From a virus, in IMG/VR virus record IMGVR_UViG_3300032058_000007, positions 1 to 32,148 of that record: DNA of 32,148 bases. The stretch is one strand, 5' to 3'. The position numbers and the translations under genes are program-made. This document shows positions 3,209 through 26,726 of the stretch, piece by piece (within the stretch, counting starts at the first letter, position 1; each line of letters starts with the position of its first letter). The notes under the pieces are model-generated. The model searched no databases, was not told the origin of the DNA, and saw only the letters and a program-made list of their open reading frames with translations.

Positions 3209-6200
3209 TTATGACTTTTTCTTCTTCGGACCAAGTTGGGGGGTCTTCGCCTTCTGCTTGATCAAGGCTTTTTGCTCAATAAAATACTCAGTAAGCGTAT
3301 GGACATCCTCCAAGTAGCGGTTCCACAATTCGGGGTTATGAGTGAACGCCCTCGCCATCGCCCGCATGTAATAGGTATCCCTGTTCTTCCGCTTGCCCTC
3401 AAAATAGGCGACAAGGTCGGGGTGGCGGATAAGAAAATCCCGGCGAGCGGCCCTGGTTGGTAAGCCGTAGTATTTCTCCGCCAAGTCCATCATGTACATT
3501 CTCCATTTGTAATCACTATCGCTCTCTCCCGGCTTGCGCTTGCGCCACTCCTGCTTAAGTTCAGGGTGTTCGCGCAGATATTCTTCGCGCTTGGAGGCGG
3601 GGAGCATGAAATATTCATCCAGAGGGGTGGGGGCACTGCGCGAAAACTCCCGCGGGCCCGCAGCCGCCCACCACCGGCTATACCACCGGCGGCCCCCTCT
3701 CCTACGGCCTCCACCGCTCTTCTCGGTTGACAAGCGGAAGTTGGCCCGCTCAGCCTCGGTAGAATTGGCGAGAAGCAGATCCTGCAATTGCTTATCGAGC
3801 CAGTCAAACGGCATCGACGAAGTTGCGAAGAAGCCGCCGGGAAAATCCCCGACAGGCGGGTAATATACCACCTTGCCAAGCCCGCTGGCATCTTTCTGGC
3901 GGTTAGTCATCATCAATTCATTGATCGTCCTGCCGGAGATCGCCAGGGCCTCCTCTTTGGTCAAGGGGATTACGCCCCTGCCATAAGTATTGGTGCTCAC
4001 CAGCTTCTTTAAGGCGGAGATGAACGCCCCCCGCTCATCCGGCGCCATCTGCAGGTAACGCTGGACATTATAGGACGGAGGGGGCCCAGCTTCCAGGCCT
4101 TTGAGGGTTTCGGGGACTTCGGCAAGCGCGCTTTCGCGGGCTGCCTCGGTAGTGATAGGCACGGGAACGTTGAGCATGGGAGCAACATACTGTAAGGGGG
4201 TAGGTAAGCTGGTCATCCGCTCGATGGCGGCCATGGCTGAAAGCCCAGCGAACGGGTAGGTGTTGGCGCCCAAAGATGGGAAGGAGAGGCCAGCCCTTTG
4301 TTCTTCGAGGCGCTTGATTTGCTCGTTAATTCTTGCCAGTTCTTCATCTATTTGGGACACAACCTTCTGATCGTTAATTTTCTTCTTCATCTCATTAAGC
4401 ACAGCCCGCCGTACGCTCAACTCGATTATCTTCCCTCCCACATCCGCGGGGACCGGGCCCGTGGGAGTGTATTCAGGAGACGGGGTCCCATAATAGTAGG
4501 TTTGATAGGTCGGATAGCCGAGAGCTGTCTCTCCGGTGCGCAATGGCCAGAAGTTTAAAATTGCTTGCTTTTCTTCTTCGCTTATCGGCTCCTCCTGCTC
4601 CTTCAACCAGTTAAGCGCATATTCGCGGAAACTCTCCATGTCCTCCCCGTCTTGGGCGCGTCTCGCCCTGGCCAACCGCCACTCCTGCCACAAGCGAAGG
4701 GCCCTGGTCGGGTTGCCCTTTTCGTCGTACCCGAATGCCTTGAGCGCTTGGGCATAGAAATCCTTGTCCTCCCCCAGACCGGCTCCCATCATTGACAGGG
4801 AACCACGCATATTTTCGGCTGCCTGATCATTACTGGTGGCGAGCCAGGCAAACAACTTAGCGGTAGCGTTGGTTTTTTCCTGCCTTAAGCGCTCATCATT
4901 TTCATCGCCCATCGGGCCGAAAATATCCGGCGCCTGGAGCTCCCATGCCAGAGTGAGACGGGGATTGGCCACTTGCGTTATTTGGAACGGGGCGGCGACA
5001 GCGCGCTCTATGCCGCCGAAAATACCTCTCGATTGGCCAGCAAACTCATCGTACACCTTGGACGCGCGCTCAGTCATCTCTGACCACCAGGTCTGGCGGG
5101 ACGCCTTCCCGCCCTCCCATCCTGGCTTGTACAGCATAGGCCGAAGCCACGGCTTCTCTCTGATCAAGCTCTCCGAATACTGTTTTATTTCTTCCGACGG
5201 TAGCGGGAATTGAGAAGCTGCCGCTCCGAACTTCTCTTCCATCTCCTCGCGGTATTTTTCCAACTCTCCCATCTGGCGCATTTGCTCTTCCGTCCAAGTG
5301 CCGCCGGAAGGAATGAACCACGGCTCCAACATTCCAGTTACCCAAGTGCCGCCGGGGAGCACGCCGCGCAGGCTTTCTACGGCTTTGGCGTATGCCTCTT
5401 CGATTTCTTTGGGAGACAATATCGGTTCGCCTCGCCAGAACACACGCTTGGCTTTTTCTTCGGGGTTCTCCATTATCCGCTTATAAATAGCGGAGATTTC
5501 TCGGTTGATAGCGGGATCAAGCATCTTGCGCTCTTCGGGGGAGAGGTTCTCAATGGCAAACCGCAGAGGGGTAATTTTCCCTTCTCGCACCAGCGCGTCG
5601 TTCTGCGCTTGCTCCTTCAACCTGTTTATTTTCTCGTAAAGAGCCATCTTCTCTTTCAACGTGCCCCGGCCAGAAATACCCGGCGTGAGGATGCCATACG
5701 GCTCCACGCCATAGAAGCCAAGGGACTTAATGTCCCGGAGTACCGGGAGGTTCTGCAGGGGCTGGGGGAGCGCCCGGATGGCTTGCTTAGCAAAATATTC
5801 GGAAACGGGGGAAAGCTCTTGAGCGATTATCTTGCCATATCCCTCCTCCTCAAGATTAGACATGGGACCGAGGGTGGGATAAAGCAAGAAGGCGGGGACA
5901 TTCAGCCATTTTTTCTCTTCGCTCCCCGGTATAGAAATGGGGATAGTGAAACGCGCCCATTGCGGGTATCCGCGTTCCTCTATCCACCGCTGTGACGCAT
6001 CTAACCAATGCCTGAGCGCCACAAACACCTTCGGGTTGTTCTTGAACATCCTTAAGTAGGAGAGGGTCTCAAGCCGCAGGTCGGAAAGGAAAGGCATAAT
6101 CCATTGAAACTCATGCTCAAACACTAACGACTTGGTGAAGTCCATAAGAATATCGTTGATAGATAATTTCGCCATGTTGGCTGCCGCGCGAGCCGCGGAG

Positions 6201-9200
6201 GCGGCGTCCACGCCCTGGGCGACAAGTTGGTTATAGTAACTTACAAAGAGCGTGCGGTACCCCGCTTCGCGGGTCAGCACCATGCCCGAACCGAAAATCT
6301 TGCTGTAAAGGTTGTTGGCCGCCTCGTTCATCCTGTCAAGTTTTTCCATCCACTTAGTGGAGCGCGTGGGGGTAAAGGTGCGGGCAAGAGGATAAGGCAC
6401 AGCGAAATCGTCTCCCGTTTCGCGGATAATGCGCTCAAGATCGTCCATGCCAAAACGCCTGGCGCCGGGCTTCAAGAAACCGGCTGCCTTGGCCGGGTTG
6501 TCAGCCGCCTTCATGTTAAACTTTATGGCATCATACAGGGTCGGCGCATATTCTTCTATGTTGCCTACCCATTTACCGATAGCATTGAGGTACTCGTCCA
6601 CGCCGCCGTGTATATTTGCCACCATATTACAGGCAGGGATGGTCTCAATTACGCTTTTCGCCGCGTCCCTCCCGCCCTTGATATACGCCACTATCGCCGG
6701 GTCACGAAGACCATAGCGGTAGAGCCCCTCGATAGCTCGGCGCGGGTTTTCCGCCGCTCTGATACCGACCCAGGTATCTGTCCTGGTGTGCAGGAAGCGG
6801 AAGGGATAGCGAAGCGCCTCCTCCTCCGCCAACTTCACCACATCAACCACTTCTGGAGGCATGCTATTAAGCAATTTGTTGTAGCGCGCGACTGAATAGG
6901 GGTCAATAGCCCCATGCATGAACAGCTTGGTGGTATTCATCGTCGCGGAGCGAAGGGGATAATGGCCTCTGCCAACCACCGCGCGTTTCCACCAACCGAT
7001 AACCCGGTTGATGGCAGAGTTCCATTCTTCCACGAGCCGCTGCCCGAAGCGAGGGATAAGCGTGTTGGTGAAAATATGGGATATATCTTTAAGGGACGGG
7101 TCGAAGCGGTGTAGGTGAGAAAGTTGCGCTATGGACAAGGGGATGGGCGCTCCCTCCGGTGAGGTGAGTTGGCGGATGATATTGTCTTCGATGATATAAG
7201 CGAAGCCGCGCGAGGGACCGAGAGTCTCCGTCCCCGGGCGATTGCTCCAATGCCTAAAGAACGCCTCCACCTGTAGGAGCGAGCCGCCCCCGCGCGCCTT
7301 AGCGACTTCGTCTAAATATCCAATGAGGCGCCTTTCGGCGTCGCTATATTCCTGTACGATCTTCTCGTATTTCTCCATCTCTTCCGGCTGTATCCAGAAG
7401 GTCTTATGGTATTTTTTAACAGCCTTTAAGAGTTTCCGCGCTTCCGCCGGGGTTATATCGCCAGAAACCAAGATGGTAATCAATTCGTCAAAGGTGATAT
7501 GGTCTTTCAGAACGGGGATAAGTTTCTCGTATTGCTCGCTTCCCAACATCAATCTGGCCCATTCCCTCAAATCGCCATCATCAAATAATTTCTTCAGCAT
7601 CGAAGGGGATGCCTGGATAACGGCCTCCAAAGCGCCTCCATAGTAACCGCTCTTGGCGATTATCTCATGCATTCTGCTGTCCACGTAGTCGGCCATTCGC
7701 ATTACCAAATCCTGAAAAGCGTCAATTACTTCCCTGCTGGCCTCTTGGGCCCGCCGGAAAACCTCATCCGCAAACGCCCTCCCAAAGGCGGCTTTGGCCC
7801 AGACGACCACATCGGGAATAGTCTTATGTGTGAGCACCAGGGCGCCCCGGTTTAAGCCGCTTTTCGCCAAAACAAAGTTCTCGAAGTTTCTCACATAAGT
7901 GGAAGCATAGATAATGTCCGAACGGCACAATTCAACAAACCTCTGCGAGATGCGGCGAGAAGTCGCCTCGTCAAAGCCGACATATTTGCTTATCCTATAC
8001 ATTTCATCGCCAGCAGCAACGGGGTTCCGAAGGTCAATCACATGAAAAGACGGATAAGGGGTTTTGGCCCTCGACAGCCAACGGACGCCGGGGGCCCCGG
8101 CGACCTTTTCCACCGCCTTTCTCATCTTCTCGCTCCCTCCCATAATGGCGGTGGAAACCTTCGGGTAATAGGTCACAATCGGGCCCGCTTCACGCAAGCC
8201 AGCCAGAGCCGCGCCCCCCAGATATTTTTTCCATGGTTCAGTAAGGCCGCCCAGGCTGGCTGTAAGCAGTCTCCCCCATTCCTTCACCCGCATATCTTTG
8301 GGCAGTTCCGCTATCTGGCGGAAAGCGGCATTAAATTGGTCAAACACATACCCGCTCACCCCCATTTCCTTGAACGCCTTCATGAAATAATAGGGATCAT
8401 CTATGGAGGAGAGGTGACGCGCTATGGGGGTAATCTTACTGTACACCTCCCCTTTCTCCGCGGCCTTCCTGGCGTCCTTTACCATTCTGGCCAGGGCGCC
8501 CCGCTCCCGGTTCAAGGCGCTCCTCAGCCCCTTCATGGCCTCCTTATACGCCGCGGAAGCGCGCTGCCCCCTTTGAGCGAGGCCAAGCACGGTGCGCGTA
8601 TTCCGATAAACATCAGGAGCGGCCGAAAGCAGATTCCTCAAGAGGCCGCTTTCTTTTTGGGCTTTAGCAAGCGGGGATACTTTCCATGGAGTTACGTAGG
8701 TAAGAGGATCAAGAAAGATGGCGCACACAAAGGAAAGGAAGAAGTTGTTTGGGAAATATTCAAAAGCGGTATATTGCCCCGTCTGCGTCGCCCTCTCATA
8801 CTTATGCAACACATCCGCTCCGAAGATGTCTTGCAGGCCTTCCATGAGCCACCTTGCGCCGGAGCCGATCATCTGCCTATAACGCGCGTAAATGTCATCT
8901 GCCGCGTTTTGAGCCGCCTTCTCGTTGCCCGTCAACTTGGCGATGTACCACCGGCCAGCCGCGCCGGTGGCCCCCACAAGCCCACGCACAACCTCAAACG
9001 GCATGTTCAGCAAATCGACAAGCATATCTGCGGTTTGAAGAACAACGCGTGAAAAACCGCTCAAAACCCTGGCCGCCTTGCTTTTCCCTGAGAGGATATC
9101 TTCAAGGCCCTCTCTGATTCGCTTCGAGTAATACCACGGCACCCTTTCCGCTGCAGGGCTGAACGCTTTGCCGCTCTTTTCGCCGAGAGAAGACATGAAA

Positions 9201-10471
9201 AGCGCGACATATGGAGATAATTCAACCAGCGCCTCCCCGGCTTCTTTCTTTTTTTGGTAGAAAAGAGCAGCAAGGTAGCCGATCTTTTCGAGGCCGGGCG
9301 GCGAATAGTTACCAGCCATCACCGCCGAAAGCAAGTCGTCCCACTTCCGTTCAGCCGTCTCGGCGCTCTTCCTTATCTCATCCGCATATCTCCCGCCCCG
9401 GCCGAAATACTTTTTTAACTCGTCATCAGTCATGCAGTCGATCGCCGCCTTAAGCGCTTCACCGGCGGTCATCCGGCCAAAAGAGGCAGCGATGGCCTTG
9501 TCGTATCCCGTTAGGGTTTCCAGGGAAGCTACCGCGTTATTCAGGTCATTGACCAGCGGCTCCATACTTTCTACAAAGGACATCATCACATCAGATGAGC
9601 CACCGAAACGTTCTTCCAGAATGGCCTGCGCTTGTTCCGGGGTTTCGGCCTCCGCGACCTGCTTGAGAAGTTCAAGTTCCTTGCCGTAAAGGTTGTTTAT
9701 CTCCGATATGGAAGCGGAAATTATATTGGTTATATCCCTGTAGCGCTGGAGCGCCCGCTCCGGCGCGGTTTCTTGCTTGGAGAATGGCCTCATCCGGGAA
9801 GCGATGGGTGTAGGCTCCCCGCCCTCGCCCTCCGCTTCGCCCATTTGCCTGGCCATCTCCAAGGCGAAAGAGCGGGGATGGGAGGATATGGTCTTGGCCG
9901 CAACCTCCGCTCCCCTCAATACGCTTTCCTTATTCTTGGGCGGGATGGGAGCAGCGGTGGCTTTCTCTATCTCCTCAAGCGTCTCGGGAGTTTCAAGCAG
10001 CGAAGCGCCCGCCACAAGGGCGGTAGTTTTCAGCGGGGCAGTCGGGGATCCTGGCATTAGCTTGGATGACAACTTTTCCAACGCTGCCAGACGCGCTTCC
10101 TGTTTATCCCCCTTCTCTGAAGGCGGGGCGATAGAAACAGTGTCGAGCGGGGACACATCGGCGCCGAATCCCTTCTTGAGGGCGTCGGTCATGCGCTGTT
10201 TTATCTCATCGGCGAGTTTCTGTATCTCCTGCCTTTTGCGCTCTTCTTCCTGCGCCCTGCGGGCAATATCTTCCGCGATTGCCGAGGAGGCGGCGCGGGC
10301 CTCCCGCCGCGTGGTTTGCTTCCACTCCTCCCCCAATTCAGGGGTGCCGGAGGGTTGCATCGCCTCCATCCAGGGCAAGTTGGCCTCGTATATATCCGCT
10401 GGTGTTGCTCCGCTTTCTTGGAGGCGTTTATATAGCTCCTCATAGAAGCGGCCATCGGACATAGCCATCAT
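3209..10471 (-). CDS. Giant 2420-aa phage protein, probable internal/ejected virion protein
   Basis: One uninterrupted 7.26-kb frame, over a fifth of the genome, between portal and scaffold. The first ATG overlaps the portal stop as ATGA. A GGGAG lies about 9 bases before the fourth codon (ATG at 10462), so true initiation may be there. Residues about 1-130 are helical and coiled. Near 575-595 is a hydrophobic stretch (FFLSFVCAIFLDPLTYVT). Around 1165-1180 is WWKRAVV...YPLRSATMN, and around 1450-1460 is FEHEFQWIMPF. I recognise these two phrases from giant polyvalent or internal proteins of phages. The basic C-terminus holds two related units (EYLREHPEL near 2295, FLIRHPDL near 2340). I see no RNA polymerase, lysozyme, methylase or tape-measure repeat signature. 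DNA ejection or channel formation is inference; a toxin or enzyme domain could be hidden in it. Confidence 0.8.
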   Translation of the reverse strand: MMAMSDGRFYEELYKRLQESGATPADIYEANLPWMEAMQPSGTPELGEEWKQTTRREARAASSAIAEDIARRAQEEERKRQEIQKLADEIKQRMTDALKKGFGADVSPLDTVSIAPPSEKGDKQEARLAALEKLSSKLMPGSPTAPLKTTALVAGASLLETPETLEEIEKATAAPIPPKNKESVLRGAEVAAKTISSHPRSFALEMARQMGEAEGEGGEPTPIASRMRPFSKQETAPERALQRYRDITNIISASISEINNLYGKELELLKQVAEAETPEQAQAILEERFGGSSDVMMSFVESMEPLVNDLNNAVASLETLTGYDKAIAASFGRMTAGEALKAAIDCMTDDELKKYFGRGGRYADEIRKSAETAERKWDDLLSAVMAGNYSPPGLEKIGYLAALFYQKKKEAGEALVELSPYVALFMSSLGEKSGKAFSPAAERVPWYYSKRIREGLEDILSGKSKAARVLSGFSRVVLQTADMLVDLLNMPFEVVRGLVGATGAAGRWYIAKLTGNEKAAQNAADDIYARYRQMIGSGARWLMEGLQDIFGADVLHKYERATQTGQYTAFEYFPNNFFLSFVCAIFLDPLTYVTPWKVSPLAKAQKESGLLRNLLSAAPDVYRNTRTVLGLAQRGQRASAAYKEAMKGLRSALNRERGALARMVKDARKAAEKGEVYSKITPIARHLSSIDDPYYFMKAFKEMGVSGYVFDQFNAAFRQIAELPKDMRVKEWGRLLTASLGGLTEPWKKYLGGAALAGLREAGPIVTYYPKVSTAIMGGSEKMRKAVEKVAGAPGVRWLSRAKTPYPSFHVIDLRNPVAAGDEMYRISKYVGFDEATSRRISQRFVELCRSDIIYASTYVRNFENFVLAKSGLNRGALVLTHKTIPDVVVWAKAAFGRAFADEVFRRAQEASREVIDAFQDLVMRMADYVDSRMHEIIAKSGYYGGALEAVIQASPSMLKKLFDDGDLREWARLMLGSEQYEKLIPVLKDHITFDELITILVSGDITPAEARKLLKAVKKYHKTFWIQPEEMEKYEKIVQEYSDAERRLIGYLDEVAKARGGGSLLQVEAFFRHWSNRPGTETLGPSRGFAYIIEDNIIRQLTSPEGAPIPLSIAQLSHLHRFDPSLKDISHIFTNTLIPRFGQRLVEEWNSAINRVIGWWKRAVVGRGHYPLRSATMNTTKLFMHGAIDPYSVARYNKLLNSMPPEVVDVVKLAEEEALRYPFRFLHTRTDTWVGIRAAENPRRAIEGLYRYGLRDPAIVAYIKGGRDAAKSVIETIPACNMVANIHGGVDEYLNAIGKWVGNIEEYAPTLYDAIKFNMKAADNPAKAAGFLKPGARRFGMDDLERIIRETGDDFAVPYPLARTFTPTRSTKWMEKLDRMNEAANNLYSKIFGSGMVLTREAGYRTLFVSYYNQLVAQGVDAASAARAAANMAKLSINDILMDFTKSLVFEHEFQWIMPFLSDLRLETLSYLRMFKNNPKVFVALRHWLDASQRWIEERGYPQWARFTIPISIPGSEEKKWLNVPAFLLYPTLGPMSNLEEEGYGKIIAQELSPVSEYFAKQAIRALPQPLQNLPVLRDIKSLGFYGVEPYGILTPGISGRGTLKEKMALYEKINRLKEQAQNDALVREGKITPLRFAIENLSPEERKMLDPAINREISAIYKRIMENPEEKAKRVFWRGEPILSPKEIEEAYAKAVESLRGVLPGGTWVTGMLEPWFIPSGGTWTEEQMRQMGELEKYREEMEEKFGAAASQFPLPSEEIKQYSESLIREKPWLRPMLYKPGWEGGKASRQTWWSEMTERASKVYDEFAGQSRGIFGGIERAVAAPFQITQVANPRLTLAWELQAPDIFGPMGDENDERLRQEKTNATAKLFAWLATSNDQAAENMRGSLSMMGAGLGEDKDFYAQALKAFGYDEKGNPTRALRLWQEWRLARARRAQDGEDMESFREYALNWLKEQEEPISEEEKQAILNFWPLRTGETALGYPTYQTYYYGTPSPEYTPTGPVPADVGGKIIELSVRRAVLNEMKKKINDQKVVSQIDEELARINEQIKRLEEQRAGLSFPSLGANTYPFAGLSAMAAIERMTSLPTPLQYVAPMLNVPVPITTEAARESALAEVPETLKGLEAGPPPSYNVQRYLQMAPDERGAFISALKKLVSTNTYGRGVIPLTKEEALAISGRTINELMMTNRQKDASGLGKVVYYPPVGDFPGGFFATSSMPFDWLDKQLQDLLLANSTEAERANFRLSTEKSGGGRRRGGRRWYSRWWAAAGPREFSRSAPTPLDEYFMLPASKREEYLREHPELKQEWRKRKPGESDSDYKWRMYMMDLAEKYYGLPTRAARRDFLIRHPDLVAYFEGKRKNRDTYYMRAMARAFTHNPELWNRYLEDVHTLTEYFIEQKALIKQKAKTPQLGPKKKKS

Positions 10472-12180
10472 CTCCCGGTGTTAGGCCCAGGATAAGCGAC
10501 CCCCTGCGCTTCCTGCTCGGGAGTTGGCCCGATGTTTCCGGGCGTCTCCTCGGGCCTCCCCGGCTCCCCCGGGACCAGAGCTTCCCGCTCCTCCATCGGT
10601 CCAAACCCGCCGAGCGGGGAGATCTCCTGGGGCGAGTTCATGAAGGCAGCTTTGGTCAGAGCAAGCAAAGCTTTAGCGTCAGAGATCTGCTGCATCGCCC
10701 TTTCCCGCGGGCGGAAGGCGGGCTCGGTGAACTCGATCTTCATCCGCTCCATCTCCTCATCGGGCTGTGGAATGCCCAGACGCTCCATAGTCGTCCACAG
10801 CGACTGGGCGTTAGCCGACAACTTCTCCAGCTCGAAGCGAGCCATGCTTATGTCGTCCCTCGGCATCACGTCTCGCCAGATGACCTCCACGCCCCTGCAC
10901 TTGCTCGCATCTTCGCCCTTGATTACTATCGGGGCTCCTTTTTTCTTCTTCTCGTTTTCCTTCGGCGGGAGATAGATAAACTCGCTCACCTCGCGATCTT
11001 TAAAAAACTTAGCGATTAAGGCAAGGGCTCCTTCTATCACTTCCTTCAGCGAAAGCTCCCAGTTGGAGCGGACCTCGTGTATCATCTTGACCATCGGATC
11101 GAAGCCCATCCTCCAAGCTATCCCGGTAAGAACCTGCCCGGACGAGAAGGCCGCCTCGGGGATAAAGGTCGCGTCATGGATATAGCGCATAAGGGCTCTC
11201 CGGCTGTCCTCTATGGTCGGGGCCTCGCCAGGCCAGGTCAGAAATTGGAGATCGCTTCCCTGCGGGAGAAAATGCACGCCCCCGTCCATGTCGTTGATAA
11301 ACTCCTCTCGCGAGGTAACCCGGGCCCCCATATACTTCAAAGGAGCATTACAATGCATGATGGCGGCGTCAGCCCGCCTGCTTTCCAGGACATTGACCAC
11401 CACATTTACATCAACAATATCAGCCACCAAGGAAGAGCCGAACACGCTGCCTGGCTCAGCAAACCAAGGAAAGGGGACAATGGGGATAAAGCCGTAGGGG
11501 TTTTCAGTGTCCTCGATGACATTATTCCCCACCACCAGGGCGTATCTATCTTCGGACCAATATTCAATGTAAGTGGCGACATCCTCCGGGACGCCCTCTC
11601 GGCCGCTCTCCAGTTCGCTGTCGGGGCCAATATTCTTTCCGTACTCGGCCTGGGCCACCGATAGGGGCAATTGATAAGCATAAATGACATCGTATATTCG
11701 CTCATCGTAAAAAGACTTGTATTCCTGCGGGAACACATACTCCGGACGACAATAGGATATTCGCACGGTCTTTGGCTCGCGCTCCGCGTTGGGCTCCACA
11801 TACACCTTCATCCATCCCGTCCCGAGCAGGGCGCTATCTTGAGCAACCCTCATCAGACAACGATTAAAAAAACACGAGCGAAGAAGGCCGTAGATGATGC
11901 GCTCAACTTTCGAGGAAGCTTCCAGGTCGTCTTTTTTCCCGCTCCGCGGCGACACAGAAAACTCCGGAGGATCGCCGACAAGGAAATGGGCAGCCTTGCG
12001 CACAATGGGCCGCACATAGTTCAAGGTCATATTCACCCTATCGGCCTTGTAGAAGTTGTTATTCCACCATTCCGCGCTGTCCCCGCTGAAGAAAGCGCGC
12101 AGGGCCTTATATTCGCTTATGCGCTCTCCGGCATTCAGCTTGCGCCGCTCATATTCCGATACGATATCTATTCCTGCCAT
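10468..12180 (-). CDS. Portal protein (SPP1 gp6-like)
   Basis: A 570-residue portal, the dodecameric head vertex through which DNA enters and leaves. The N-terminal order fits the SPP1-type family: YKALRAFFSGDSAEWW, VRPIVRKAAHFLVGDPP, a clip/stem region with DSALLGTGWMKVYVEP, then VYPQEY-type strands and YIEYWSEDRYALVV. A helical region after NPYGFIPIVPFP runs into VNVVVNVLESRRADA. The C-terminal about 80 residues are Pro/Glu/Gly-rich and probably disordered. GGGAGGTG lies 9 bases before the ATG. The start overlaps the TerL end by 32 bases, and the stop overlaps the giant-gene start, which suggests translational coupling. Confidence 0.92.
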   Translation of the reverse strand: MAGIDIVSEYERRKLNAGERISEYKALRAFFSGDSAEWWNNNFYKADRVNMTLNYVRPIVRKAAHFLVGDPPEFSVSPRSGKKDDLEASSKVERIIYGLLRSCFFNRCLMRVAQDSALLGTGWMKVYVEPNAEREPKTVRISYCRPEYVFPQEYKSFYDERIYDVIYAYQLPLSVAQAEYGKNIGPDSELESGREGVPEDVATYIEYWSEDRYALVVGNNVIEDTENPYGFIPIVPFPWFAEPGSVFGSSLVADIVDVNVVVNVLESRRADAAIMHCNAPLKYMGARVTSREEFINDMDGGVHFLPQGSDLQFLTWPGEAPTIEDSRRALMRYIHDATFIPEAAFSSGQVLTGIAWRMGFDPMVKMIHEVRSNWELSLKEVIEGALALIAKFFKDREVSEFIYLPPKENEKKKKGAPIVIKGEDASKCRGVEVIWRDVMPRDDISMARFELEKLSANAQSLWTTMERLGIPQPDEEMERMKIEFTEPAFRPRERAMQQISDAKALLALTKAAFMNSPQEISPLGGFGPMEEREALVPGEPGRPEETPGNIGPTPEQEAQGVAYPGPNTGR

Positions 12181-13633
12181 TTCTCACTGCACCTCCCTTT
12201 GGGCTTGTAATGCGAGAGCCGACATAGTCCACCTTCAACCCGCCATACATACTAAAATTAACCAAATAATACACGCCTAAAGCCAACGACATAACCCTGT
12301 CGGTGTTAATGGTGGTGTCGTTCCAGCGATAATCTATCAACTCATCCATCAAGTCGTTGTCGGGATATGATACTATGCTCGAGGGGTAGGTCTCGCCAAG
12401 CAAACTCCAGCACGGACCATCCACGGCACACGGACGCGACATCATGTCCTGAAGGGTAAGTATTATTTGCTCTTTAGTGTTTTGATTGAAGTGCACGCCG
12501 TCAACCGGCAACCCCAATTCTTCCAATCTTTCCATCACCACGTCCCCAATACCAGTGCTGTCCACCACCACTCCCACGGCATGATACTTCTTATACAACT
12601 CTCTAATAGCATTATACACGTCGGACCACTTTGTTTTGTGCAATTCCACACTATCCACCCGCACGATGAGCGGAAGGTGGGTGAAATCGAGGACGTGGCC
12701 CACCGTGGCGTCATACTTGCGGGCCAGGTCGAAACAGAGCAAATATTTATGCCCGCGGAAAAACATCCCGCGGGATATTTTGGGACTGAACATGGCATAG
12801 ACCATTTCATACTTGAATGGAGCGTCGGTGTCGGAGACAAACTCCCCGTAAATAACCTGTGAGCGGTAGGGGGATCCCTCGTAATCTTGCTCGATACGCT
12901 TAATGTCCTCGGGATCAAGAAACTCGTTTTCATAGATGGAGCCAGACATGGAAAAATAGCGCGGATCGCCTTCTTGTCCCCGGCGGTAAAGATGGTAATA
13001 ATACTGGTCCGAGAAAGGCTTTGGCGTCCCGATAAAATGAAGTTTCCCGCCATCCCTGGTATTGGGCACTATGGTGCGGGGGAGAAGAATATTCTGCGTC
13101 AACCTACGCAAATTACGCTCGTATCCCGCCTCCTCTAATGTTATCAGCGAGTACCTTTCGCCCTCAATGAGCCGACCATCACGGTCAGTAGAGCCAGCAG
13201 TAAAAGTGGAACCATTTTTGAAGTATATCTTGCGCTTGACGTTATCTATTTTTTCGATGAGAAACCGGAGCACTTCAGAGTTGGACCGCAATTGGGTCAA
13301 ACGATCAAATTCCTTACCGCTGACCTCGTAGGTGTAAGCGCAGTTAAGCGTGTTGTATGGAGCATAGGCGGCATCCCGCGGTGGAAGTTCAAGCCCCTCC
13401 TTAAAAATACAATAATAAGCGTGAAGGCGAGCGATGAGCTCCGTTTTCCCCCACGAGTTCCCGCAAACGAGGACGTTATATTTTGGGAGCAGCGTGGAAA
13501 GGAAATATTCCATCTGGCCCTTGTGAATTGGGGGTTTACCATTAGGGTTCTTCCCAAAAACCAACTCATTGAAAGCCGGGAAATCGTTGCGACATTTGCT
13601 AAGTTCATCAAGAAGGCGGTCTATTTCTCCCAC
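12149..13633 (-). CDS. terL: Terminase large subunit
   Basis: The 494-residue DNA-packaging motor. The ATPase domain has a Walker A variant GNSWGKT (residues 58-64), a Walker B-like LITLEEA (163-169; the usual Asp is replaced by Glu) and a coupling motif FIGTP (200-204). The C-terminal RNase H-like nuclease shows LCFDLARKYD (Asp302), VVVDSTGIGD (Asp358) and a late acidic residue near TDRVMSLALG (Asp445). The start chosen is GTG at 13633, 26 bases inside the preceding zinc-finger gene, with a modest GGTGGTGAT upstream. The next in-frame Met is far downstream. It is followed by the portal with an overlap. The packaging type (cos, pac or other) cannot be told from this. Confidence 0.95.
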   Translation of the reverse strand: MGEIDRLLDELSKCRNDFPAFNELVFGKNPNGKPPIHKGQMEYFLSTLLPKYNVLVCGNSWGKTELIARLHAYYCIFKEGLELPPRDAAYAPYNTLNCAYTYEVSGKEFDRLTQLRSNSEVLRFLIEKIDNVKRKIYFKNGSTFTAGSTDRDGRLIEGERYSLITLEEAGYERNLRRLTQNILLPRTIVPNTRDGGKLHFIGTPKPFSDQYYYHLYRRGQEGDPRYFSMSGSIYENEFLDPEDIKRIEQDYEGSPYRSQVIYGEFVSDTDAPFKYEMVYAMFSPKISRGMFFRGHKYLLCFDLARKYDATVGHVLDFTHLPLIVRVDSVELHKTKWSDVYNAIRELYKKYHAVGVVVDSTGIGDVVMERLEELGLPVDGVHFNQNTKEQIILTLQDMMSRPCAVDGPCWSLLGETYPSSIVSYPDNDLMDELIDYRWNDTTINTDRVMSLALGVYYLVNFSMYGGLKVDYVGSRITSPKGGAVRNGRNRYRIGI

Positions 13634-15279: not shown

Positions 15280-15726
15280 ATGGAACTCGAAAACGTGGTC
15301 TGGGCAATCAATTATATCCTTGCTCCCAATGCCGGGAGCAAGGAACGTGCTGCTGCTGAGCGGCGCCGATTTGCGCGTCAGTTGATTGCCGTGCTGGCGC
15401 GGGACCAAGCGGAGCTGGAGCAGCTCGCGCAGCTCGCGCCGAACGCGGCGCCGCAAACCGCACGCGAGCTGTTCCCATGCGTCAACATCATGACGCCGGA
15501 GATAGTGTCATGCCGCTGGCTGATTCCCGGGAAGGTCGCCGTGGAACTCTCCTATGGGCGGGGATTCCCTCGCGAGGACGGCTCGTGCCCGCCGCTCTGG
15601 GGCGTGAGCATCCATAGCTGGCCGCCAAACCGGGACCTCGATGACCTCAGCGAGTGCTTCGGCTCCGAGGCAGAGGCGCGCGCCTACATCAGAGATTTGA
15701 GGAACCGCCTGAAGGGCTCCAAATAA
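15280..15726 (+). CDS. Hypothetical early protein (148 aa)
   Basis: A soluble protein with its own promoter (P2), hairpin leader and AAAGGAGG ribosome site. The N-terminal 60 residues are helical and Ala/Arg-rich (ERAAAERRRFARQLIAVLAR). The C-terminal half looks beta-rich with aromatic residues (CRWLIPGKVAVELSYGRGF, PPLWGVSIHSWPP) and ends in an acidic-then-helical segment (SEAEARAYIRDLRNRLKG). I do not recognise the family. Early position and separate expression control suggest a host-interaction or anti-defence role, but nothing in the sequence shows it. Confidence 0.75.
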   Translation: MELENVVWAINYILAPNAGSKERAAAERRRFARQLIAVLARDQAELEQLAQLAPNAAPQTARELFPCVNIMTPEIVSCRWLIPGKVAVELSYGRGFPREDGSCPPLWGVSIHSWPPNRDLDDLSECFGSEAEARAYIRDLRNRLKGSK

Positions 15727-15730
15727 TATG

Positions 15731-15764
15731 CCCGGCAAAGCCGGGACGAGAGAAAGGAGGAGAA
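15731..15764 (+). promoter_or_regulatory. Leader module L3 (intercistronic): hairpin plus ribosome-binding site
   Basis: CCCGGC-AAA-GCCGGG, a perfect 6-bp stem (15731-15745), then ACGAGAGAAAGGAGGAG. No promoter-like boxes are seen just upstream. This copy lies between two cotranscribed genes, so it probably acts in RNA. Confidence 0.7.
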
Positions 15765-15767
15765 GAA

Positions 15768-16358
15768 ATGGACATCCAGGAGATTGTGGGCAACCACCGT
15801 AAGTGGCTGGAGGGGGAGGGGGGATGCCGCGCCGACCTTCGCGGTGCCGACCTTCGCGGCATCGACCTCACCGACGCTGACCTCTACGGCGCCTACCTCT
15901 ACGGCGTCGACCTACAGGGCGCCAACCTCCGCGGTGCTGACCTCCGGCGCGCCGACCTCACCAACGCCGACCTGGAGGGTGCCGACCTCACTTATGCCAA
16001 CCTTAAGGGTGCCTACCTCACCGGCGCTGACCTCACCGGCGCTGACCTCCGGCGCGCCAACCTCCGCGGTGCCGACCTGGAGGGTGCCTACCTCGGCGGC
16101 GTCGACCTCGAGGGCGCCAACCTCACCGGTGCCGACCTCACTAATGCTGGCCTCACTAATGCTGACCTCACTAATGCTGACCTCACCGGTGCCCGCCTGG
16201 AGGGCGCCAACCTCCGGCGTGCCGTCCTCCGGCGCGCCGACCTGCGCCGCGCGGACCTCACTGGAGCCGACCTCACCGACGCTGATCTTTACGGCGCCTA
16301 CCTCGAAGGTGCCGACCTCACCGGTGCCGACCTCGAAGGCGCCGTCATGGAGGAATAG
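15768..16358 (+). CDS. Pentapeptide-repeat protein (196 aa)
   Basis: After a short helical N-terminus (DIQEIVGNHRKWLEGEGG), residues about 22-193 are an unbroken run of roughly 34 A-D/N-L-x-x pentapeptides (RADLR GADLR GIDLT DADLY and so on). This is the pattern of a right-handed quadrilateral beta-helix. Some family members (Qnr, MfpA) mimic DNA and bind gyrase; others have unknown roles, and the phage N-terminal motif is widespread. The real start is the ATG at 15768 behind leader L3. It is cotranscribed with the 148-aa gene. The repetitive DNA invites copy changes, and a truncated relative sits at 14987. Gyrase interaction is speculation. Confidence 0.9.
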   Translation: MDIQEIVGNHRKWLEGEGGCRADLRGADLRGIDLTDADLYGAYLYGVDLQGANLRGADLRRADLTNADLEGADLTYANLKGAYLTGADLTGADLRRANLRGADLEGAYLGGVDLEGANLTGADLTNAGLTNADLTNADLTGARLEGANLRRAVLRRADLRRADLTGADLTDADLYGAYLEGADLTGADLEGAVMEE

Positions 16359-23342: not shown

Positions 23343-23651
23343 TTATTTTCCATAAAATCCCATCTGCTTCAGCGCGCCGTGTATTTCTCCGGCGATGATG
23401 TCTATAAGGAACTCATCCCGTGCTGCCTCGTGTCCCCTCGTAGCGGCGTGAAGCACCTCGTGCCAGAACGCCTGCCACCGTATATCGTCGGGAGCGTCCC
23501 GCTCTAACGTGATACGCCCGTTATCATATTCGCACAAGCCAAGCAACCCTGTGCCATCAGCCCCAATGAGATTGCGCTTCTGATGCACGGAATAAGTGAT
23601 GCCACGGATGGTGAGGCGGCGAGGTAGGGGTTTCATCTTAACTGGACGCAT
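23343..23651 (-). CDS. Small HExxH zinc metalloprotease-like protein
   Basis: A 102-residue protein with the zinc-protease motif HEVLH at residues 64-68 (QAFWHEVLHAATRG). Beta strands come before it (LTIRGITYSVHQ, LGLCEYDNGRITLE), and afterwards a helix with DEFLIDIIAGEIHGAL carries a possible third ligand Glu. This resembles the compact ImmA/SprT-like domains common in phages. The start at 23651 is chosen for GGTGAT close upstream; GTG at 23660 and ATG at 23636 are alternatives. It overlaps the phosphoesterase end by 14 bases. The target is unknown; no scaffold-cleavage evidence is seen, and its position is far from the head genes. Confidence 0.7.
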   Translation of the reverse strand: MRPVKMKPLPRRLTIRGITYSVHQKRNLIGADGTGLLGLCEYDNGRITLERDAPDDIRWQAFWHEVLHAATRGHEAARDEFLIDIIAGEIHGALKQMGFYGK

Positions 23652-25011
23652 GATAATCACCGTTCGCGTACAGCTCGCACGCTACCGCGCCCAACGCCCC
23701 TGGCGGCAAGGCAGACCGCGCAGCGTATGTGCCGAAATACTCCATGAAAGCAGGGCAAATGATGACATATTGTTTTCGCGCCTCAAGCCGGAAGTTGACT
23801 CTGTCACGGCATATTCTGGTCACCTTGTTCTGCATCTCATCATGAACATGGCCCATAATGGTGAACATGGTGAACTCTTGCCACTTGGTCGGCTCCGTGG
23901 CGGCGTTCAACTTACCCCCTTTTGTCCGAGAAGATGTTGTCCCGTGCTGGCACCAAAAATCGAATACATATCCGTTCCACAGGATGTCCACATAGACCGG
24001 CTCGTTGAAGTAGGGAATTTCCAGCTTGTCGCATATCCATTCAAGCGGGTCGAAGTCATATTTCTGCGACCGCCACTCATGAGTCCCAGAGATGGCCCAC
24101 AAGCACTTATGAGCGATAGGCGCGAGGGCGTGGGTCAACTCCATGCGTAAATTCCTCGGCCTCATCTCTTGCTCGTAAACGCTTGTCCCCTTGTTCGAGT
24201 CGCCGTAACCCCAATCGCCGAGGTCCCCGTTAATAAAGAAGAAAACGTTTTCATTGTGCGCTATCCAGTTGATGTATTCATCAAACCTCACCCGGTCATG
24301 AGCGAAACAACCACGGTGAGCGTCAGAAATGGGTACGACCTTTATCTTTGTCCACGGCAGATCATCGGGGAACTGTATCCATAGATAAGGCTGTCCGTCC
24401 GGCTGCTTGCGGTAGCTCCATATCTTGGGTTTCACCTCTATCTCGTCCGAAAAGATGGGGAGATAAACAAATATCTTTTCGTGCCATTGGTTTCGCGTGC
24501 AGAACAGCTCGTATCCTTCTACCGGCCGGGAGAGCTCGCGGTCAATGCGCTCCTTGCCCCAACCATATTGTTGAGAGATTTCTTTGTATGTACGCCCTCG
24601 TGCGCAGAAAAGGTGGAGGGGGGTGGATTCAGCAGATGTTCGCGCTTTTCGGCTGTTTCCCCGCACCCTACCACATGCTGGGGAGCATGTCACCGCCCCC
24701 TGCTTCCTGCGCTCAGGCGGGACAGGAGCCTCGCAGACGAGGCAAACCGCGCTCCCGCGGGTTATCTCCTTCACTCGGCGCGCCTGCCTCTCGCGGGCGA
24801 TACCGCAGGCATGAGAGCATGTCACCGCCCCCTTGCGCCTGCGCTCTATAGGCACAGGCTTGCCGCATATAAGACATTTTTCTTCACCTGGGAGCTTGGC
24901 CACGCGCCTTCTGCGCCGCTCCCTCTCTTGGGCGCACCCCACAGAGCAAGTATACGCCCTTCTCCGCAGACGAGCAGCAGGGATGGGCTTCCCGCATATT
25001 TCGCAGTCCAT
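23638..25011 (-). CDS. Triple zinc-finger / calcineurin-like phosphoesterase fusion
   Basis: A 457-residue protein with an unusual layout. Residues 1-115 hold three copies of a C-x2-CGKP-x(12-13)-TC-x3-C knuckle (Cys3/6/22/26, 46/49/65/69, 90/93/109/113), each followed by an Arg-rich stretch. Residues about 130-180 look HTH-like (GRTYKEISQQYGWGKERIDRE). Residues about 220-450 are a metallophosphoesterase: ISDAHRG (Asp230, His232), NGDLGD (Asp263), SGTHEW (His311), WCQHG (His356), GHVHDE (His388, His390). The start has GAGGT upstream, 4 bases after the endolysin stop. A DNA- or RNA-directed nuclease or phosphatase is likely. It lacks the SbcC partner of SbcD. Confidence 0.85.
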   Translation of the reverse strand: MDCEICGKPIPAARLRRRAYTCSVGCAQERERRRRRVAKLPGEEKCLICGKPVPIERRRKGAVTCSHACGIARERQARRVKEITRGSAVCLVCEAPVPPERRKQGAVTCSPACGRVRGNSRKARTSAESTPLHLFCARGRTYKEISQQYGWGKERIDRELSRPVEGYELFCTRNQWHEKIFVYLPIFSDEIEVKPKIWSYRKQPDGQPYLWIQFPDDLPWTKIKVVPISDAHRGCFAHDRVRFDEYINWIAHNENVFFFINGDLGDWGYGDSNKGTSVYEQEMRPRNLRMELTHALAPIAHKCLWAISGTHEWRSQKYDFDPLEWICDKLEIPYFNEPVYVDILWNGYVFDFWCQHGTTSSRTKGGKLNAATEPTKWQEFTMFTIMGHVHDEMQNKVTRICRDRVNFRLEARKQYVIICPAFMEYFGTYAARSALPPGALGAVACELYANGDYHASS

Positions 25012-25015
25012 TGTT

Positions 25016-25921
25016 CTACCTCGCAGGTAGGATACTCACCGCCGCGACCACATTCGGGTTGGGCGATTTGATGGTGAGAGCGAAGCCGCCATCATGCTTG
25101 CCCTCATAGAACCCGCGGCAGTCGATTGCCCTTCGCTCCCACGAGCTGAGGGTGACCTTGTATGGCTTGCTGAAAAATGGCGTGCCGTAGACCTCCACCT
25201 TCGCCTCGCGGTCGCTCTCGTTCTTGAGGATGAGAAAGCAGCGGTATTGCTCATCCCCCAGTCGATAATAGGCGTCGGGGATGACCTGCACATGCAGGTC
25301 GCCCTGCTTCTCCACCTCTCGCGCGATCGCCAACATCGGCTCCACCTCCCTTTCGCCCTGGCGGATTAGGCGCAGGGCTTCTCTCTCCACTTCTTCAAGA
25401 TGCGGATACAAGTTGTTTCCCGGGCAGTTGCTCGGCCCGACGGTCGACAAATGGTTGAAGTCTCTATGGCCGTGGTGGAAATCGGTCCCACACTTCCCCT
25501 GCAGGTGCAGGGCGGCGGCAAGCTCCGCCATGCCCTGCAGCATCTCGTCGCGGGGGTGGTAGAGGTCGTAGTTGCCCGCGACCTCTACCCCGATGTAGGG
25601 ATTGCCTATCTTGCTCGCTCCAGAGAAGGCGTCGCAGTCAGACCACGAGGGGCGGCCCTCCAACGCCCATGGCTCCACGCCGTACCCGTCGTCCACGAGG
25701 ATGAGATCATATCCCTCGATGATGTCGCGCGCGCCCCACCGCTTGATTTGGTAGTCATGATTAACCCTTTGGATTTGTAGCGCGCGCCCGGGAGACACGG
25801 GCGTATGCTCGTGCGCGCCCATGTGGTGCCAGCAGATGCCCACCTTCCCAAACGGCCCCCGGTAATAGCTGGGGGGGTGGGGCGGCAGTAAGGTTTGGTT
25901 CCGGGGGATTACGCGGAGCAT
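25016..25921 (-). CDS. N-acetylmuramoyl-L-alanine amidase endolysin
   Basis: The 301-residue lysis enzyme cleaving the bond between muramic acid and the stem peptide. The N-terminal amidase-2/PGRP-like domain (about 1-180) shows zinc ligands in ICWHHMG (His32/33), GHRDFNH (His152) and SNCPG (Cys166). It also has NPYIGVEVAGNYD and the substrate loop WSDCDAF. A helical linker (about 175-205) is followed by a beta-rich C-terminal domain (YRLGDEQYRCFLILKN, WERRAIDCRGFY, ALTIKSPNPNVV), probably for wall binding. The start was moved to the ATG at 25921 because GAGAGGAGGGAGCC lies just upstream; the longer frame to 25993 would overlap the previous gene. No signal peptide, so it needs a holin. Confidence 0.92.
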   Translation of the reverse strand: MLRVIPRNQTLLPPHPPSYYRGPFGKVGICWHHMGAHEHTPVSPGRALQIQRVNHDYQIKRWGARDIIEGYDLILVDDGYGVEPWALEGRPSWSDCDAFSGASKIGNPYIGVEVAGNYDLYHPRDEMLQGMAELAAALHLQGKCGTDFHHGHRDFNHLSTVGPSNCPGNNLYPHLEEVEREALRLIRQGEREVEPMLAIAREVEKQGDLHVQVIPDAYYRLGDEQYRCFLILKNESDREAKVEVYGTPFFSKPYKVTLSSWERRAIDCRGFYEGKHDGGFALTIKSPNPNVVAAVSILPAR

Positions 25922-25967
25922 GGCTCCCTCCTCTCGGCTGATTGATAGTTGGGGCATCGGCTGTTTG

Positions 25968-26192
25968 TCAGTACCACTTGTCCTCGCCGCCAACCTTGCG
26001 CTTCTCGGTATCGACGTAGACGCGCATATCGCAGGCCTTGAGCGCCTTTGGAGGCGGGAATGGGCTGGGGTGGACCCTGTCGAACAGCACCACTTCGTCG
26101 TCGGGCCATTCCCGCTGCAGGATGGTGGCGACCTTGCGCGCGTCCCTCTTCGCCGAAAGCGTCAGAAAGCACACAGCAATTCGGCGTGACAT
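25968..26192 (-). CDS. Hypothetical small protein in lysis region (74 aa)
   Basis: The ATG has a G-rich GGGGGGAAGG site upstream. The 74-residue product begins with a beta-strand-like RRIAVCFLTLSAKRDARKVA and alternates strands and helices (ATILQREWPDDEVVLFDRVH, DMRVYVDTEKRK). This could be a small alpha/beta (Rossmann-like) domain, but no motif identifies it. It lies between the holin-like gene and the endolysin. A second overlapping frame (25909-26172) is a shadow. Confidence 0.65.
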   Translation of the reverse strand: MSRRIAVCFLTLSAKRDARKVATILQREWPDDEVVLFDRVHPSPFPPPKALKACDMRVYVDTEKRKVGGEDKWY

Positions 26193-26205: not shown

Positions 26206-26508
26206 TCACAGACCGCCTTTTATCGCCAGAGAAATAAACGCGCCAAGAAGCGCCATAGTAAGCCCCGCCATAGTAGTAAGAATGAAGGCAACAACTTTGT
26301 CTATGCGCCGATTGTTTATCTGATCTATGCGGTCATGTATGCGCCGGGTGCTTTCCGCGCATATCTCGCGGTGGTGATCATACTCCTGGCGGGTTATCCT
26401 CTCACCCATACAGGCGATGATGGTATCAAGTTTAGCGTCTATTGTTTGAAGACGATTATTCAATAAATCCCATTCTCTCCTCGTCACATATCCATTGTTT
26501 TCAGCCAT
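26206..26508 (-). CDS. XhlA-like membrane protein, probable holin component
   Basis: A 100-residue protein. Residues about 10-72 form a charged amphipathic coiled coil (REWDLLNNRLQTIDAKLDTI, TRQEYDHHREICAESTRRIH). It is followed by one C-terminal membrane helix (VVAFILTTMAGLTMALLGAFISLAI, about 73-97). Cytoplasmic coiled coil plus C-terminal anchor is the layout of XhlA/haemolysin-type phage lysis proteins. The ATG follows GAGGAGGCAAAA and overlaps the previous gene by 25 bases. With the amidase two genes downstream, a lysis role is well supported by context. Confidence 0.75.
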   Translation of the reverse strand: MAENNGYVTRREWDLLNNRLQTIDAKLDTIIACMGERITRQEYDHHREICAESTRRIHDRIDQINNRRIDKVVAFILTTMAGLTMALLGAFISLAIKGGL

Positions 26509-26726
26509 TTTTGCCTCCTCTGCGCTATCTCCTCATGCGTGAGAGAGCGAAACGCTTCCGGGTGCTTGACTTCATCCGGGGCGTATATGTGTTTCCCGAA
26601 CAATACTCCGCAGAACAAAGCAGAGAGAACGGCAAAAACAGTCGAAGCGGCATCCTTGCCGCAAAGAGCCAACACAGCGAACCCGACAAGGCATATTGAG
26701 GCCCCCCATATCTCCCATTGCTTCAT
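26484..26726 (-). CDS. Holin-like two-helix membrane protein
   Basis: An 80-residue protein with two membrane helices (WGASICLVGFAVLALCG, about 7-23, and STVFAVLSALFCGVLFGKHI, about 28-47) joined by a short charged turn (KDAA). It has a charged, soluble C-terminal tail (HPEAFRSLTHEEIAQRRQKW). Size, charge pattern and place before the XhlA-like gene and amidase fit a class II holin. The ATG has AAGGAGGCCGAAGAG upstream. Which of this and the next protein forms the lethal hole cannot be told. Confidence 0.75.
   Translation of the reverse strand: MKQWEIWGASICLVGFAVLALCGKDAASTVFAVLSALFCGVLFGKHIYAPDEVKHPEAFRSLTHEEIAQRRQKWLKTMDM

Follow-up and report, generated by a model that had tools for sequence, protein, structure and literature searches.

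A late-block phage phosphoesterase with a treble-clef-like finger array and a threonine in its third metal-binding motif

The gene described here lies on the minus strand of IMG/VR virus record IMGVR_UViG_3300032058_000007, of which the whole stretch of 32,148 nucleotides (the window) was analysed. The virus is a tailed phage, and the gene product is a DNA-nuclease-like phosphoesterase, uncommon in form but of a familiar enzyme type. The relevant features are:

12149..13633, minus strand: large terminase subunit, encoded early in the late block that also contains the phosphoesterase, on the same strand
23343..23660, minus strand: downstream gene, a short putative metallopeptidase (HEVLH) matching phrog_1233 and phrog_13742 (peptidase)
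23638..25011, minus strand: phosphoesterase gene with N-terminal finger array (457-aa ORF; phrog_7339, E 2e-25)
23638..24351, minus strand: metallophosphoesterase core, residues 221-457 plus stop (phrog_7339 match, motifs, model)
24082..24084, minus strand: codon ACT for T310, where the family has a conserved metal-binding Asn (GNH[E/D]; family alignment)
24454..24621, minus strand: winged-helix-like segment, residues 131-186 (AF2 model; HTH_11 match in the vir520 relative)
24640..25011, minus strand: three tandem C4 treble-clef-like fingers, residues 1-124 (Cys pattern, self-match, weak family matches, model helix)
25016..25993, minus strand: upstream gene, an Amidase_2-like endolysin with probable ATG at 25921
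26206..26726, minus strand: two small ORFs with hydrophobic segments

The phosphoesterase frame runs from an ATG at 25011 to a stop at 23638, and the plus strand of this interval is not open. Its start lies four bases past the stop of the amidase gene, directly after the endolysin as the initial annotation had stated, and the three Cys units, HTH-like segment and calcineurin-type domain follow one another in the order then described. A Shine-Dalgarno-like AGGAGG precedes the amidase ATG, and the metallopeptidase gene overlaps the 3′ end of the phosphoesterase gene. The two small hydrophobic ORFs match no holin family and would be holin-like from their position.

The minus strand also carries portal and SU10-type capsid genes and a small-terminase candidate named by position. 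Between portal and capsid lies an ORF of 2420 aa (3209-10471, minus strand), very large for such a site, for which no Pfam match was found. Towards the opposite contig end, the same strand bears tail-like genes, followed by the hydrophobic ORFs, the amidase and the phosphoesterase. A pentapeptide-like repeat protein is encoded on the plus strand (15654-16358), with A(D/N)LxxAxL repeats and 15-bp tandem repeats. Both contig ends (1-223 and 32075-32148) consist of one shared 111-bp (37-codon) tandem repeat, which probably sits inside a tail-fibre-like gene and is probably where the assembly broke. Because both ends fall in the same repeat, the genome is probably circular or circularly permuted, and the late genes would then form a single operon in which the phosphoesterase comes close to last.

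Residues 221-450 of the protein match phrog_7339 over profile positions 28-252 of 263, and the core contains D230/H232, G262/D263, G309-T310-H311-E312, H356 and H388/H390. Compared with the canonical set of DxH, GD, GNH[D/E], H and GHxH, four motifs are intact and motif III reads GTHE, the Asn being missing. The "full calcineurin-type active site" of the initial annotation thus holds for every motif but this one. By homology and predicted fold, we take the protein to be a departing member of the metallophosphoesterase (calcineurin-like) superfamily.

To place the substitution, 64 family sequences were gathered from phage records and from IMG/VR, where custom DNA patterns were used (one further pattern gave 0 matches). 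Position 310 is Asn in 62 of the 64, Glu in one relative (L040) and Thr in the window protein only, a count to be read knowing that Asn there was required by one collecting pattern (12 loci), but neither by the other (53 loci) nor for the phage records. All 64 members keep the motif-III His and Arg, and DxH, GD and GHxH are found throughout save in truncated or odd members. The window protein itself keeps the other ligands and the catalytic His (D230, H232, D263, H311, H356, H388 and H390). In human ADPRibase-Mn the Asn equivalent to 310 binds metal 2, and the N110A mutation lowers efficiency by 30-250 fold without abolishing activity (PMC4334965). An inactive metal site had been named as evidence against the earlier proposal; what is found is a site with one probable ligand exchanged and the rest retained, so that activity is uncertain. 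Since ACT is one base from AAT, an assembly error could give the same picture, and Thr310 may reflect such an error.

Other natural departures occur among the relatives. A gene at L020:2630-3607 (minus strand) has DPQ instead of DxH in motif I. The second-closest relative (L009:224-850, minus strand) ends just past GHTH at in-frame TAG codons; TAG recoding was rejected for this virus, since the standard code leaves its large genes uninterrupted, and the gene looks C-terminally truncated or mis-assembled.

An AF2 model built from 45 sequences (mean pLDDT 75) replaced a single-sequence model (mean pLDDT 36) and gives the core values of mostly 80-97. PolD DP1, the archaeal 3′-5′ proofreading exonuclease, is the top match in VIA-align (Z about 18, 226-228 residues, rmsd 3.2-3.5, the best at Z 18.1 over 228 residues with rmsd 3.5), followed by polymerase delta B-subunits (Z 14-15), LpxH (13.9) and Mre11 (13.4). 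Foldseek also ranks DP1 first, and a profile search of the PDB gives DP1 as a weak best match (E 0.01), then SbcD (0.07). With DP1, LpxH and Mre11 aligning at Z 13-18, the modelled core has a phosphoesterase fold. LpxH is a lipid-precursor hydrolase and is structurally as near as Mre11; the fold alone therefore does not fix the substrate. DP1 and Mre11 hydrolyse by a common mechanism that requires the motif-III His (PMC4996933), a residue kept as H311 in the window protein.

The N-terminal region contains three C4 units (C3/C6/C22/C26, C46/C49/C65/C69 and C90/C93/C109/C113) recurring every 43-44 residues. When residues 1-130 are matched against themselves without gaps, the best score is 106; none of 300 shuffled versions exceeded 47, so the internal repeat is not due to chance. 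The same region is arginine-rich, with a net charge of +20 and a pI of 10.5, which bears out the earlier description of Arg-rich C-x2-C/C-x3-C units in triplicate. The repeats are not "near-identical", as had been said: units share 15/28, 11/28 and 19/28 residues (39-68%), and silent sites are near or at saturation (dS 1.67 and 2.49, the third not computable). Because dN is 0.5-0.7 against this saturation (dN/dS about 0.2-0.3 where defined), the fingers are old duplications kept by protein-level selection.

"Zinc knuckle" is also a poor label for these units. Their spacing is C-x2-C-x15-C-x3-C, all Cys, and none fits the CCHC pattern C-x2-C-x4-H-x4-C. No curated family matched above its cut-off, the nearest being the DksA/TraR finger (21.4 bits, cut-off 24.9) and the "probable treble clef" DUF2116 (21.6 bits, cut-off 26.8). 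In both AF2 models a helix begins at the second Cys pair of the units, in treble-clef fashion. The best name would thus be treble-clef or DksA/TraR type, and zinc binding would be expected. The nearest PHROG matches of the region are phrog_54 and phrog_1271; the latter (HNH endonucleases) aligns with residues 3-148 and is a non-specific model, matching 10 of 14 control genomes.

Between the fingers and the core, the AF2 model predicts the winged-helix order H-H-H-E-E (H132-137, H142-149, H153-160, E167-173, E179-185), with pLDDT of about 75-79 in the helices and about 50 in the wing; the segment itself has no Pfam match. The HTH-like segment of the initial annotation is thus supported by the model and by a relative, vir520_00004, whose N-terminal domain matches Pfam HTH_11. 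BLASTP homology between the two proteins starts only at the wing, although their helices likely share ancestry. Besides the window protein, two family members have an HTH-like front domain: vir520_00004 and L040:498-1787 (minus strand), a relative from a large contig in which a SANT/Myb-like segment, recognised by eye, precedes the core. The latter, which also has the Glu at position 310, seems to be an independent fusion of DNA-binding type.

The finger array was found in none of the 63 other family members, and so appears to be an add-on that does not define the enzyme. Finger-free homologues, which had been proposed as a test of the knuckles' importance, are thus the norm. A search for the same domain order, also proposed earlier, gave no second case in the collections covered, with limited sensitivity. 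The array alone gave no tblastn match in phages, where low-complexity filtering may matter; a plasmid search gave no match, and a single genome contig scan gave two chance matches only. Viral contig protein searches with two proteins and two alignments returned no relatives, the chosen peptides having been too specific. Within the collections searched, both the array and Thr310 look private to the present virus.

The gene had been considered oddly placed for a DNA-metabolism enzyme. In MTATph1 and KLEB27-3, however, the family member lies between TerL and portal; in Bacillus phage Slash, as gp29, it adjoins the endolysin, a few genes ahead of TerL; and in MPV1 it precedes holin/endolysin. In vir520 it closes the forward late block, as the window gene nearly does. 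At 15 IMG/VR loci its neighbourhood includes TerL, portal, capsid or endolysin genes, a count biased by our choice of large ORFs as the neighbours tested. With terminase, portal, capsid or lysis genes as routine neighbours of its relatives, the window gene is not oddly placed, and a late position is usual for phrog_7339.

The explanation that we tentatively favour, with confidence somewhat short of even, is a DP1/Mre11-like phosphodiesterase that is made late, is directed at DNA and has gained a docking module. The core would be a two-metal DNA phosphodiesterase of DP1/Mre11 type, from the stand-alone phrog_7339 family, and would cleave phosphodiester bonds in single-stranded or branched DNA or at the 3′ ends of DNA. 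Produced late, from a packaging-to-lysis operon, it would work on phage DNA in maturation, packaging or clean-up, and its N-terminal domains, the winged helix plus three basic treble-clef-like fingers, would anchor it on the DNA. The change of Asn310 to Thr probably weakens the second metal site, and may make the enzyme slower or more dependent on docking. The initial annotation's idea of a nucleic-acid-directed, packaging-linked phosphoesterase fits the fold, the basic fingers and the family's gene position, while the Asn-to-Thr change leaves activity uncertain. Its further option of host-genome degradation was rejected; nothing points to it, and the gene is in the late block.

A narrower form of this scheme, in which fingers and winged helix provide sequence or structure targeting and Thr310 makes cutting docking-dependent, would have the enzyme process packaging sites or branches specifically; we consider this very improbable.

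Among the alternatives, the one to be weighed most carefully is that the phosphoesterase domain is mostly a non-catalytic scaffold, and that fingers and winged helix make the protein a late DNA-binding or regulatory factor. Eukaryotic polymerase B-subunits turned scaffolds offer a parallel: those of polymerase delta, with inactivated nuclease motifs (PMC4996933), are among the structural matches at Z 14-15. The rarity of a residue other than Asn at position 310, the cost of N110A in ADPRibase-Mn (PMC4334965) and the size and basic character of the N-terminal array are all consistent with it. However, an abandoned site should have lost more than one residue, and all seven of D230, H232, D263, H311, H356, H388 and H390 are kept; moreover, N110A is weakened rather than dead, and a single-base AAT-to-ACT assembly error would look identical. 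We regard a scaffold as unlikely, if still a serious contender.

It is less probable again, and in our view doubtful, that the enzyme is a small-nucleotide phosphodiesterase acting on cyclic nucleotides or nucleotide second messengers in counter-defence. The superfamily does include cyclic-nucleotide and nucleotide phosphodiesterases (PMC4320098), and models of YfcE and PdeM match some family members weakly. Against this, the gene is late, a basic extension of DNA-binding type is ill-suited to a soluble small substrate, and the closest fold is DP1; the lack of a PADLOC match counts for little, because that library holds defence rather than counter-defence proteins. Finally, a lysis- or envelope-linked phosphoesterase, partnering the amidase on lipid or wall phosphate, is suggested by the adjoining amidase gene, the LpxH-like fold and further relatives beside endolysins, but is highly improbable given relatives between TerL and portal, away from lysis genes, no signal peptide or transmembrane segment apparent by eye, and fingers and winged helix that indicate nucleic acid.

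Phosphoesterases of phrog_7339 are diverse in phages and often lie among packaging, head and lysis genes; no experiment or tested role was found for any member, nor any literature linking treble clefs to metallophosphoesterases in phages. That one member carries a putative DNA-binding array of its own, and others independent HTH-like fusions, points to DNA as the substrate. The preferred reading, a DNA-directed phosphodiesterase, would thereby offer a handle on why tailed phages retain a DP1/Mre11-like enzyme in late operons.

The window protein can be compared with several known systems. Its core and its late or packaging gene position are those of the phrog_7339 phage "DNA repair exonuclease" family; however, most members are 255-270 aa, finger-free and GNHE, whereas this protein has 457 aa and GTHE. 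The closest relative found, vir520_00004, is about 35% identical over the core and comes from Caudoviricetes sp. vir520, for which Methanofastidiosa is listed as host. It has an N-terminal winged helix, as predicted for the window protein, and ends its late block, but lacks the finger array and has GNHE intact. PolD DP1 (Pyrococcus abyssi, 5ihe/8ppt) is the best structural match (Z about 18, model residues 185-457) at only 15-16% identity; its GNHD Asn is Thr here, its OB domain was not recognised in the window protein, and neither its partner DP2 nor any other polymerase was named among the scanned window ORFs. Mre11/SbcD resembles it in fold (Z about 13) and in its phosphoesterase motifs, whereas no Rad50/SbcC-like partner was recognised among the large window ORFs scanned, on a contig that may be incomplete. 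The protein differs from the phrog_1271 endonucleases in having no HNH. DksA/TraR-type and DUF2116 C4 treble-clef fingers share the Cys pairs and the helix at the second pair, but here there are three in tandem, with C-x15-C-x3-C spacing and scores under the cut-offs. The case is thus one of a known family altered by fingers, a winged-helix-like segment and Thr310, rather than a new type of system.
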